A stretch of 64,000 nt of DNA, from the NCBI GenBank assembly GCA_947454705.1, contig CANGKZ010000003.1, positions 1 through 64,000 on the forward strand. Direction: 5' to 3'. A model generated the notes under the pieces. It worked only from the letters and a program-made list of their open reading frames with translations, was not told the origin of the DNA and ran no database searches. The position numbers and the translations under genes are program-made. Source of the stretch: Verrucomicrobiota bacterium (lineage in GTDB: Bacteria; Verrucomicrobiota; Verrucomicrobiia; Limisphaerales; UBA9464). How positions within the stretch are numbered: position 1 is the first letter of the stretch; each line of letters starts with the position of its first letter. This document shows positions 5,016 to 39,248 of this stretch, piece by piece.

Positions 5016-5930
5016 GTGATTCGCGTCATTTTCAACCCGACGGCCCGAGGGGACAAAGCGCGCGCGTTTCAGGAAACGCTGGGAAGATTGAGTCAGGGGA
5101 GCCAGGTCGCGCTGCATCCCACCACCGGCCCGTCCACGGCCGCAGCCATCGCAACCTCCGCCGTCGAGGCCGGATGCTCCATCTTGGTGGCCGCAGGGGG
5201 CGACGGCACCGTCAACGAGGTGCTCAACGGGTTGGCATCGGCCAAAGACGGCCTGCAATCCACCGCCCTCGCCATCCTGCCGCTGGGAACGGTCAACGTC
5301 TTTGCCAAGGAACTTGGCATCCCGTCCCAACTGGAAGCGGCATGGCAGGTGATCCTGGACGGAGCGGAGCGAACTGTGGATCTGCCGTTCGTCGATCCGA
5401 TCAACACCGGAATTTCATCGCGTCGGTATTTTGCCCAAATGGCGGGCGCGGGCATGGACTCCGTGGCCATCGGACGCGTCCGTTGGGAGTTGAAGAAAAA
5501 GGCCGGGCAGTTCGCGTACCTCTGGGCCTGCGTCGAAACGCTGGGCCAGCAGCAGCCCCGGGTTGAATTTGAAATCAACGGCACCAAGCGGGTGGCTCCG
5601 CTGATCGGCGTCGGAAATGGACGATTCTACGGCGGACGCTTCCCGGCATTTCCCAAGGCCCGACTCGATGACGGGTTGCTCGACGTGACGGTCATTCCGC
5701 GGGTGAACCCGATCACCATTTTGCGTGTGCTGTTGGCGTTGCAGCGCGATCGACTCGCCGACTGCAGCGCCGCGCTTTGCCTGCAGACTTCCGAGCTCCG
5801 CCTTCGAGCCTCCGACGGAACCCCGTGGCACGTGGAAGGCGACGTGGCGGGGGACCTTCCGGTTTCGATTGGGATTCGCCCGCGTGCGCTTCGGGTGGTG
5901 GGGCCGGGCGGCCCGAAGTTGAAGGGTTGA
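5016..5930 (+). CDS. Diacylglycerol/lipid kinase family protein (YegS/DagK type)
   Basis: A cytoplasmic lipid kinase of 304 residues expected to phosphorylate diacylglycerol or a related lipid with ATP. The N-terminal Rossmann-like kinase domain starts with IRVIFNPTARG and contains the nucleotide-binding signature GGDGTVNEV (GGDGT at residues 61-65). The C-terminal beta domain contains the GNGRFYGGR motif typical of the family. The start is GTG at 5016. The 3' end is odd: the last three sense codons and the TGA stop fall inside the GTTGAAGGG repeat that begins at 5918, so the C-terminus was probably reset when the repeat arrived. The true substrate cannot be told from sequence. Confidence 0.85.
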   Translation: MIRVIFNPTARGDKARAFQETLGRLSQGSQVALHPTTGPSTAAAIATSAVEAGCSILVAAGGDGTVNEVLNGLASAKDGLQSTALAILPLGTVNVFAKELGIPSQLEAAWQVILDGAERTVDLPFVDPINTGISSRRYFAQMAGAGMDSVAIGRVRWELKKKAGQFAYLWACVETLGQQQPRVEFEINGTKRVAPLIGVGNGRFYGGRFPAFPKARLDDGLLDVTVIPRVNPITILRVLLALQRDRLADCSAALCLQTSELRLRASDGTPWHVEGDVAGDLPVSIGIRPRALRVVGPGGPKLKG

Positions 5931-6160
5931 AATGTTGAAGCGTTGAAGGGGGATCCGACGCAACCTCGGGGGTTTTCTCATTCGTTCGGAGTCCCGTTTT
6001 CAGACGGTTTGGGGAGGCGCGATTGAGGTTTTAGCGGGCTGAAAATTAATCCCTCTTTCACGTTCCACGTCCAACAGCAGAGCCGCGTAAACGCGGTACT
6101 CCATACGTGTGAGCAGAACGCCGCCCCCCTTCAACCCTTCAACTTTTTAACCCTTCAACC
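5918..6160. repeat. REPIN-like element A1 (paired inverted hairpin modules)
   Basis: This element fills the gap between two convergent genes. Its outer ends are inverted tandem copies of GTTGAAGGG (5918-5952 forward; 6124-6160 as CCCTTCAAC). Inside lie two 30-base modules in inverted orientation: REP-b forward at 5983-6012 (GGAGT head, hairpin CCGTTTTCAGACGG with one T-G pair) and REP-a reversed at 6078-6107 (hairpin CCGCGTAAACGCGG, then ACTCC). Element A2 at 13116-13362 has the same architecture in the opposite orientation. The GGAG tetranucleotide next to a short palindrome is a known hallmark of REP sequences mobilised by RAYT transposases. Confidence 0.75.
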
Positions 6161-13115: not shown

Positions 13116-13362
13116 GGTTGAAGGGTTGAAACGTTGAAGGGTTGAAGGGGGAAGTAGGGTTCCACCCACACGTTTGGAGTACCGCGTTTACGCGGCTCTG
13201 ATGTTGGACTTCGAACTCAGCGGAGGTTTGAAATCCAATCCCATCGAGGCCTTCACACGCACCTTCCCGAACCGTCTGAAGACGGAACTCCAAACGGATG
13301 AGGGAAACTTCGCGTGAGTCGACGGATTCCCCTTCAACTCTTCAACCCTTCAACCTTTTAAC
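13116..13362. repeat. REPIN-like element A2 (paired inverted hairpin modules)
   Basis: Second full copy of the A element, inverted relative to A1, again between two convergent genes. Outer ends are GGTTGAAGGG tandems (13116-13150) and CCCTTCAAC tandems (13330-13362). REP-a forward lies at 13171-13200 with a perfect CCGCGT-TT-ACGCGG hairpin (13182-13195). REP-b reversed lies at 13267-13296 with a perfect CCGTCT-GA-AGACGG hairpin (13272-13285). The two modules face each other, so GTTTGGAGT and ACTCCAAAC form a longer inverted repeat about 125 bases apart. The RND gene stop is only nine bases beyond the end. Confidence 0.78.
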
Positions 13363-13370
13363 TGGCGCCC

Positions 13371-22260: not shown

Positions 22261-22290
22261 GGTATGGCGTATCGCGTTTACGCGGCTCTT
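22261..22290 (+). repeat. Lone REP-a hairpin module (A4)
   Basis: A single copy of the 30-base REP-a module. The CGCGT-TT-ACGCG hairpin is intact (22273-22284), and the flank GGCTCTTCTGTTGGAC matches the flanks of A1 and A2. The GGAG head has drifted to GGCG and the outer stem base pair is lost. No partner module is seen nearby. Confidence 0.7.
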
Positions 22291-22341
22291 CTGTTGGACG
22301 GGACATTCAGAGGAGGGGTGAAATCAAACCAGAAAGTGCCC

Positions 22342-22491
22342 GAAAATAGCCCCGGCCTTGAGGCCGGGGATTCTCTCCCAAACCCGGATCGAGTCCCGCA
22401 GGGACGGCAGAACGATCCCTCTGCCGTCCCTCCCGGGACTCAAAGACACCTACCTCCTCAGAGCCCAGGCCTGAAGTCCTGGGCTATTTTC
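22342..22491. repeat. Element C: 150-base unit with terminal inverted repeat and three hairpins
   Basis: The ends are a perfect 11-base inverted repeat, GAAAATAGCCC (22342-22352) and GGGCTATTTTC (22481-22491). The left end carries a perfect hairpin CCCCGGCC-TTGA-GGCCGGGG (22350-22369). The right end carries GCCCAGG/CCTGGGC (22463-22484). The centre is a long hairpin: GAGTCCC plus AGGGACGGCAGA (22391-22411) pairs with TCTGCCGTCCCT plus GGGACTC (22420-22441), 19 pairs with a small internal loop. No reading frame of note lies inside. It may be a small non-autonomous element or a structured RNA. Confidence 0.7.
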
Positions 22492-22610
22492 AAACGAACT
22501 CGGCGAAAATTCGGTGAGGCGCTGTCGCGTCCGGGTCGAACCCCGTTTTCAGATTGAACCGCAAACTCGATCCGACGCCCGGTGAAGTCTCCTTCCATTC
22601 GCCCGCAGAT

Positions 22611-22823
22611 GTGGAGGGCGCGGTTCCACCCGCGCCCAAATCAGTCGCGCGCCTCACGCAAAAGGGATCCCCCACTCCGCAACGCATCGTGCCCAACCGA
22701 AATCGGAACAAACACCATCGTTACGGTGAAGCACCTCATGAACCGGCAGGCACCTTGCCGCACCGGGACTTCACACGCGATCCGCAGACCAAGATGGGGC
22801 GTGGGTGGAACCCCGCCCTCCAC
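22611..22823. repeat. Unit D bounded by 28-base inverted repeats
   Basis: GTGGAGGGCGCGGTTCCACC plus its continuation (22611-22638) recurs inverted at 22796-22823 with about 25 of 28 positions matching. Each arm also contains its own dyad (GGGCGCGG/CCGCGCCC in the left arm). The 157 bases between show no gene. Architecture is that of a small element with terminal inverted repeats. Only one copy is present in the window, so repeat status rests on the paired arms. Confidence 0.6.
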
Positions 22824-23017
22824 CGCGAACCACCCGCATAAAGGTTCGATTCGGCCCCCGGTGCCCGGTGCGCAATTCTTTCTTCCTCTTTCGGAAAGAA
22901 AGCTTCAAGCGGGAGGTCTAACTCGTCTTGCCTGTCTGAGAATCCCGAAGGGGATGCGGATCTTACGACTTGGAGGGGGGTTTTGACAGAAAGCTGGAAA
23001 ACCAGCAAACTGGGTGT

Positions 23018-23308
23018 GTGAAAACGACGCTGGATTTACCAAATGACCTAGTTCGGGAGGTAAAACTTCGGGCCGTGAACGAAGGTCAGAAGCTGAAGGA
23101 CGTCGTTTCAGACCTGCTGCGGCGAGGCTTGGGGCAACCGACTCCCACCCATTCCGGGGTTGCGGCCCGTCGAGGGAAAATTGTCCTCCCTTTGTTTCCA
23201 TCTTCACCCAAGGCACCAGCCCGGCGGATGTCGTTGGATGCCCTCGTGGCCGCCGAACAGGAATCCCTGAACCGCGAAGATCTTGAGCGCCTCCGCCCGC
23301 CTGGTTGA
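23018..23308 (+). CDS. vapB: VapB-type antitoxin (ribbon-helix-helix)
   Basis: A 96-residue antitoxin from a GTG at 23018, which starts right at the ribbon strand VKTTLDLPNDLVREV. The following helix-turn-helix of the RHH fold is seen to about residue 36 (VNEGQKLKDVVSDLLRRGL). The C-terminal half is basic then acidic and should wrap the toxin. Its 3' end overlaps the toxin gene by 26 bases, typical of a type II toxin-antitoxin operon in which antitoxin and complex repress their own promoter. An upstream in-frame ATG at 22970 adds 16 residues with no family match. Confidence 0.82.
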   Translation: MKTTLDLPNDLVREVKLRAVNEGQKLKDVVSDLLRRGLGQPTPTHSGVAARRGKIVLPLFPSSPKAPARRMSLDALVAAEQESLNREDLERLRPPG

Positions 23309-23768
23309 TACCGGGATTTGGATCAGCCTGGCCTTTGAAAGTCACCCCCAACACCGCACGGCGAGGGAGGTGTTTGAAGGCGCGGATTCAAACCGACCCG
23401 TCGCATTCTGCCGTGCCACGCAGAACAGTTTTTTGCGCCTCCTGACGACGCCAACCATTCAGCAATTGTATGGGGCCCCTATCGTGACCAACGCGCAGGC
23501 CTGGGCAAAGACCCAGGAATTGCTGGCCCTGCCGCAGGTCATTTGGTTGGCAGAACCGGTGACGCTCGAAGCGGAATGGAAGCGGTGCGGCGCCGTAGCA
23601 ACTGCCTCGCCCAAGGTTTGGATGGATGCCTACTTGGCTGCGTTCGCGATCGCCGCGGGCTTGGAACTCTTAACGTTCGATCGCGACTTTTCCAAATTCA
23701 CCGAGCATGGACTGAGGCTCCACTTGTTGGGAGCCAAGGCCGTCGAAACTCGAAAGCGAAAAAGGTAA
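23283..23768 (+). CDS. vapC: VapC-type PIN-domain ribonuclease toxin
   Basis: A 161-residue PIN toxin expected to cut RNA (often tRNA) when the antitoxin is lost. The acidic, metal-binding residues are in place: Asp9 in LVDTGIW, Asp115 in WMDAYLAAFA and Asp in the TFDRDF segment near the end. The start is TTG at 23283, just inside the antitoxin gene. The C-terminal tail is basic (RKRKR). Repeat-rich DNA lies immediately upstream of the pair, which fits the mobility of such modules. Confidence 0.85.
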   Translation: MSASARLVDTGIWISLAFESHPQHRTAREVFEGADSNRPVAFCRATQNSFLRLLTTPTIQQLYGAPIVTNAQAWAKTQELLALPQVIWLAEPVTLEAEWKRCGAVATASPKVWMDAYLAAFAIAAGLELLTFDRDFSKFTEHGLRLHLLGAKAVETRKRKR

Positions 23769-39090: not shown

Positions 39091-39248
39091 GTAACGGAGA
39101 GCAATACCGTCAGCCCCGCAGGGACGAAAGGAGGATTCGGTGCGGGTCGCGGTTGTGAAACGTTCGGCAACCCCAATGCAGCTGCGGCGAACTTCATCAA
39201 CCCGGGTGAATCCGCGTAATCCCAAGCCTGCTTCCATGCTTTCCAAAT

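Follow-up and report, generated by a model that had tools for sequence, protein, structure and literature searches.

The 150-base element at 22342-22491 of the window, i.e. of the whole stretch of 64,000 nucleotides analysed here from a Verrucomicrobiota genome (G000), is best read as a non-autonomous, REPIN-like miniature mobile repeat. We give this reading a probability of about 0.8. The element would consist of the ends of a Y1 (HUH) element, arranged as A-B-loop-B'-A' and devoid of a gene, and would owe its spread to the action in trans of the only Y1 transposase of the genome, which is of the subclass 1.2 type. A preliminary description of this DNA had proposed a non-autonomous transposable unit, and the proposal has held up: the copies form a dispersed family, the genome has a single Y1 transposase gene accompanied by half-units of the element, relatives have transposase genes bracketed by the same kind of ends as well as gene-less units, and congeners differ at the orthologous place. 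The repeat structure, the conservation of the hairpins, the link with the transposase and the occurrence of the same ends with and without a gene can be read directly from the sequences.

Structure of the element

The sequence and coordinates first given for the unit are correct, and so is its 11-base perfect terminal inverted repeat: GAAAATAGCCC (22342-22352) is the exact reverse complement of GGGCTATTTTC (22481-22491). Folded as single-stranded DNA, the 150 nucleotides reach -43.3 kcal/mol, against a mean of -21.4 (sd 2.8) for shuffled sequences (z -7.84, 0 of 200 shuffles as good). The fold contains the three stem-loops already described, at 22350-22369 (8 bp), 22391-22441 (central) and 22464-22483 (the core of A', which in the minimum-energy fold pairs over 22462-22485), but the central one has 8+12 = 20 bp with small bulges instead of 19. 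Nor are the hairpins nested: they stand side by side inside the terminal repeat, none within another. The AGG-CCT theme said to mark each side is clear in the right hairpin (AGGCCT), whereas in the left one CCT and AGG occur only beside the loop. The element is laid out as a hairpin A with an ATAG foot, B, an 8-nt loop, B' and A':

22342-22349, plus strand: left foot GAAAATAG, which tags hairpin A; majority-base share of 0.93 among 28 copies
22350-22369, plus strand: left hairpin A, 8 bp with a TTGA loop; from fold and covariation
22370-22390, plus strand: spacer 1, less conserved; majority-base share 0.73
22391-22411, plus strand: B unit GAGTCCCGCAGGGACGGCAGA, a small hairpin of its own or the 5' side of the central stem; from fold and pair counts
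22412-22419, plus strand: central loop, position of the transposase gene in the four nearest named relatives; from fold and the relatives' loci
22420-22441, minus strand: B' unit, inverted copy of B and 3' side of the central stem; from fold and pair counts
22442-22463, plus strand: spacer 2, less conserved; majority-base share 0.66
22464-22483, minus strand: right hairpin A', inverted A, with one mismatch in the window copy; from fold and covariation
22484-22491, minus strand: right foot CTATTTTC, inverted tag; majority-base share 0.91
22492-22522, plus strand: right flank, majority ATTCCnAAnCGGnnAAGGnTCGGTGnGGCG, common to many copies at lower identity in corrected orientation

The flank at 22492-22522 is either part of the unit or part of its preferred surroundings. 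The covariance model of the element (R1) has a single match in the window at thresholds up to E=10. Hence the stem trace once noted at 39110-39125 is no copy of the element, even if the 11-mer CCCGCAGGGAC is present at 39115-39125.

Conservation of the hairpins

Pairs were counted in an orientation-corrected alignment of 28 copies, nine of which had been turned round after comparison of the spacers. These copies come from the 31 places of the genome that score 77 bits or more; the exclusion of C71:11280 and C4:2047, each with one broken end, and of C39:19575 favours paired columns. Majority-base shares are 0.90-0.96 for the feet, A, B, B' and A', and 0.66-0.73 for the spacers and the centre. 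Over all helices, pairing reaches 92.6% (89.5% in shuffles) and covariation 0.110 (0.059 in shuffles), values attained in 0 of 500 shuffles. The local A hairpins have 95.2% pairing against 89.7% and covariation of 0.122 against 0.033, again with 0 of 500. For the central B/B' stem, covariation is 0.100 against 0.080 (5 of 500), while changes on both sides and pair types are no better than in shuffles across the 28 copies. In 13 of these copies the loop triplet of B is complementary to that of B', where 6.3 such copies are expected.

Other pairings were less convincing. A and A' show a weak tendency to pair with each other (covariation 0.046 against 0.033, 8 of 500), so that local A hairpins are preferred. 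B and B' folding independently are little above shuffles, both for pairing (95.4 against 94.8%, 61 of 500) and for covariation (0.075 against 0.062, 16 of 500). The compensatory changes proposed as a check on the stems are present: they strongly back the A hairpins and weakly back the central B/B' stem.

A dispersed family in the host genome

BLAST of the element against its own genome (5.45 Mb in 80 contigs) gives 69 rows, and among 39 genomes, the own included, there is a match in 10. R1 was built from 28 copies on a first alignment, in which the orientations of this near-palindrome were mixed. With a threshold of E<=0.001 and both strands counted, it gives at least 98 rows in G000. These amount to at least 52 distinct places, of which 31 reach 77 bits; the weaker matches include half-units. 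Counts per genome obtained with this model are lower bounds because only part of the first-look candidates was scored (150 of 3178 in G000). The foot is ATAG in most own-genome copies. Of 19 loci, 2 have an open frame of more than 400 codons (stop to stop) running across the unit and the other 17 have none, which is a count of open reading frames and not of called genes.

A very stable fold would also suit an element that is mainly a structured RNA, as the preliminary description had alternatively put forward, or a hairpin ending transcription or stabilising mRNA at gene ends, with copies kept for that role. On the minus strand, one stretch (22369-22350) resembles a terminator, and Di Nocera's account of GTAG repeats (PMC3733652) states that many REPs are thought to be transcribed. 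Yet the window has no match to Rfam families at gathering scores, and the model matches both strands at 46 of the 52 places in G000, hence no sense strand is marked. The 2 terminator-like sites compare with 0.6 expected in shuffles, and one of them is outside the element. Since an RNA role also leaves the link with the transposase gene unexplained, we find it unlikely.

The median pairwise identity between copies is 75.5%, and the sole near-identical pair (L005 and L007, 98.6%) also has its flanks in common. Some copies are at the same place in the congeners G001 and G007; most copies are therefore old. At the place orthologous to that of the window copy, the covariance model finds no counterpart in G001-G006. 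In G007 (L088) it gives marginal matches only, 18.1 bits at best, and we rejected this locus as a copy of the element, since the place holds a different unit family. In G002 the orthologous slot is short, in G006 it contains no unit, and in G001 and G007 it holds another A-B-type unit family. In the G007 slot (L088, around 600-850 and 1220-1460), this other family shows a hairpin CCCAGGGCA-GCCCTGGG and occurs again some 610 bases away. The orthologous places of 7 congeners yielded no empty site with exact borders, since homology stops at least about 120 bases short of the element.

In corrected orientation, many copies have about 30 bases in common on their right and, further out, inverted arrays of a TTGAAG octamer. 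A GTTGAAG array lies within about 160 bases of 17 of the 28 copies, on the plus strand to the left and on the minus strand to the right, with the exception of L003. These brackets are either a larger repeat or an insertion target. GTTGAAG arrays in opposite orientation also bracket intergenic palindromic elements at 5918-6144 and 13117-13363 of the window. Inside these brackets, at 5990-6110 and 13160-13300, is another palindromic family with a CGCGTTTACGCGG-like core, a remnant of which stands beside our element at 22265-22300. REP pairs inside longer palindromes have been described (PMC3733652). The same intergenic region contains a further repeat family at 22611-22824, which is found at many places in G000 and G006. 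The stretch at 22970-23768 encodes a PIN-domain protein (PF01850) with a small upstream partner without Pfam match, an arrangement resembling toxin-antitoxin pairs; the G001 counterpart of this intergenic stretch is short and differs in content.

One might propose that the family is now passive, i.e. that it multiplied long ago and is spread only within larger TTGAAG-bracketed intergenic blocks, by recombination or duplication. This would agree with old and diverged copies, some of them at the same place in G001 and G007, and with the common flanks and inverted brackets around many of them. But the hairpins stay paired while the spacers vary, and in several phyla the units match the arms of the transposase of the same genome (see below). 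Purely passive spread seems quite unlikely to us.

The Y1 transposase of the genome

G000 has one Y1_Tnp gene (PF01797; 102.4 bits for its product), at G000:C26:62256-62705 on the minus strand. We took as its start the TTG that aligns with the ATG of the orthologue in G001. The resulting protein of 150 aa has the motifs DHVH, WQ and YIESQEEHH and matches solved TnpA sequences, e.g. the ISHp608 transposase. Just upstream of the gene are two half-units, each composed of A and B, in the order B'-A'-A-B-gene, the nearer one about 80 bases from the start. The G001 orthologue is syntenic, 70% identical and has the same arrangement of half-units. No downstream half-unit was seen at these two loci, and both fail the inverted-arm test used below (score 21 each). 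On the transposase tree, the protein belongs to a group of 8 rows that spans four phyla (SH-aLRT 98), and this suggests horizontal transfer.

The protein passes the NCBIfam IS200 model (78.4 bits, cut-off 55) and does not pass the RAYT model NF047646 (25.2 bits, cut-off 80). The first of these scores, together with a terminal inverted repeat and the lack of a gene, might point to a remnant of an IS200/IS605 insertion sequence or to a classical DDE-type MITE. But the copies lack the target-site duplication of a MITE: 0 of 28 have a match of 4-8 nt and 1 of 28 has one at 2 or 3 nt. Y1 enzymes are not expected to duplicate their target. Moreover, G000 has a single Y1 gene, in contrast to the multiple near-identical gene copies of IS200/IS605 (subclass 1.1), and the ends of our element are inverted double hairpins, not the small subterminal hairpins described for IS200 in the survey of Quentin 2018 (PMC6006769). 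Either origin is thus highly improbable.

Bracketed genes and gene-less units in relatives

The four nearest named relatives of the transposase are 54-62% identical to it and come from four phyla. In all four the gene is bracketed as A-B-[gene]-B'-A', and in the Spartobacteria record the start codon comes directly after B. Gene-less sequences of the A-B-B'-A' plan match well in the Spartobacteria, planctomycete and Hydrogenedentota genomes. Matches of this kind are weaker in the Sumerlaeota genome, where the three that we inspected are half-units. Among 22 units or half-units that we chose for comparison, these three included, 17 had their best match in the arm of the transposase of their own genome. 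The number rises to 20 if the orthologous pair of G000 and G001 is taken as one, the exceptions being L043 and L183. Two genomes, like the age of the copies and the lack of a downstream arm at the G000 locus, weigh against our reading. G006 (96% complete) has units, with at least 26 model rows, and its two Y1 genes found carry other hairpins, no matching transposase being found; G129 has a related transposase but no match to R1.

With a six-row protein alignment, at least 81 of 387 Verrucomicrobiota genomes have a transposase match at E<=1e-20. To look for arms we fetched 106 loci, which are best matches and not a random sample. One locus with a short flank and a duplicate of our own locus were dropped, and 97 of the remaining 104 fit the Y---Q--HH pattern, the other 7 being excluded as unfit. 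Inverted arms (score >=40) are present in 73 of these 97 loci, against 7 of 485 mismatched pairs. They are found in 67 of 89 loci in Verrucomicrobiota and in 6 of 8 from other phyla. In Bacteroidota, at least 108 of 247 genomes have a transposase match, and the arms of the loci examined are weaker or absent: 8 of 27 loci have inverted arms, against 2 of 135 mismatched pairs. This set started from 30 loci with enough flank, of which three were excluded as not fitting the motif, at least one of them (L224) only because the pattern misread it. One Emticicia gene is in both sets (L100 and L200) and fails the arm test in both. At another locus (L152, G289:C1), a Y---Q--HH transposase has very long inverted arms (score 388, 293 bases); this is perhaps a young or compound element.

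The base triplet before the strongest hairpin is TAG, CAG or AAG in 47 of 70 arms (26, 14 and 7, respectively). On the transposase tree, the identity of the base that precedes AG is clustered, with 13 changes against 22.3 when shuffled (0 of 200 as low). This result must be read with the poor resolution of the tree (136 columns) and with labels available for 54 of 96 rows, of which L109 and L110 were corrected by hand and L059 and L060 set by inspection; before correction there were 14 changes against 23.2.

Comparison with known systems

The element resembles the REPINs associated with RAYTs (Bertels and Rainey 2011, PMC3116915), which also have two inverted tagged hairpins with a spacer, are dispersed and are linked to a Y1 gene, and for which that paper proposes a clover fold. 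Like them, it has two inverted tagged hairpin palindromes and a linked gene with the same palindromes, which in its own genome are upstream only. Yet each side has two different hairpins (A and B), the unit is 150 bp long, and the GTAG/GTGG tag is absent, the foot being ATAG. The linked gene is a Y1 gene but by model not a RAYT: where RAYTs (class 2 TnpA_REP) have Y---NP, this transposase has Y---Q--HH (YIESQEEHH). The ATAG foot and the 25.2 bits with the RAYT model, under the cut-off of 80, rule out membership in the GTAG/RAYT branch.

The REPtrons, TIRtrons and GTAG repeats described by Di Nocera 2013 (PMC3733652) are similar in their head-to-head pairs of tagged palindromes and in having Y1 genes flanked by inverted repeats, with some TIRs called "double palindromic". 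The verrucomicrobial O. terrae is said there to be rich in GTAG repeats. Our system differs in its foot, in the subclass of its transposase and in the single A-B-gene-B'-A' plan shared by relatives from four phyla. TIRYTs and TIRtrons have long inverted repeats around the Y1 gene, a GGGGWSAS motif and a C-terminal HTH domain; here, inverted arms occur in the relatives, and the 150-aa protein has no Pfam domain besides Y1_Tnp. We also considered B as a CGTC REP. Such REPs have an unpaired CGTC tag and a stem of 8-9 bp starting with A-T pairs (PMC3733652). B' does contain CGTC, three letters of which (GTC) are part of a 5-bp GTCCC stem, and the assignment was rejected.

By motifs and length, the transposase fits subclass 1.2 of TnpA_Y1 (PMC6006769), with which it shares DH[IV]H, WQ, Y---Q--HH, a length of about 148 aa and a low copy number. 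The survey lists this subclass as without REPs and as found mostly in Cyanobacteria and Bacteroidetes; it describes an automatic search for GT[AG]G feet, with some subclasses inspected by eye. In contrast, we find inverted hairpin arms flanking the gene, in Verrucomicrobiota and in other phyla. In an open-licence library, searches on REPs of this subclass or of Verrucomicrobiota brought up, besides general REP/RAYT papers, PMC3733652, PMC6006769 and PMC8266576; no partner repeats appear to have been reported for the subclass. What is new here is the link of repeats to Y---Q--HH transposases and to their hairpin arms. We lean, with some reserve, towards a broader conclusion: Y---Q--HH class 1 (IS200-like) Y1 transposases may constitute a second REP system of their own, widespread among Verrucomicrobiota and also occurring in several further phyla, with two-part ends (an A hairpin with a NAG foot, and a B hairpin) and gene-less A-B-B'-A' units. 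It would have been overlooked through searches for GT[AG]G feet and a known range of mostly Bacteroidetes and Cyanobacteria.

A putative mechanism

In the TnpA_REP enzymes of E. coli, Stenotrophomonas and Marinomonas (PMC8266576), recognition and the choice of the cut both involve a foot located 5' of the hairpin. These enzymes differ from ours in being RAYTs and in having activity proven in vitro. For the Marinomonas enzyme, with a CT site, that study describes only the AG of GTAG as strongly selected; AG is likewise the commonest common part of the feet in the arms analysed here.

The element was probably moved in trans as single-stranded DNA. For recognition, cutting and the single-stranded intermediate, we infer the following course. 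Once single-stranded, as may happen on the template of the lagging strand, the unit would fold its two outer A hairpins locally, and the B/B' stem would draw the ends together into a clover shape. A transposase dimer would recognise each A hairpin with its (T/C/A)AG foot, cut beside them and join the DNA at a new site without target duplication. Our guess for the cut site is the CT at 22484-22485, because the AG of the foot guides cutting at CT in one enzyme (PMC8266576).

These results provide a repeat partner for a transposase subgroup that was described in 2018 as without REPs. They suggest that repeat systems based on tagged hairpins are not confined to the RAYT branch and occur in the IS200-like branch too. 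The double-hairpin A/B ends offer a testable model of how Y1 enzymes choose their ends, and A-B units may account for some of the structure in the non-coding DNA of these genomes.
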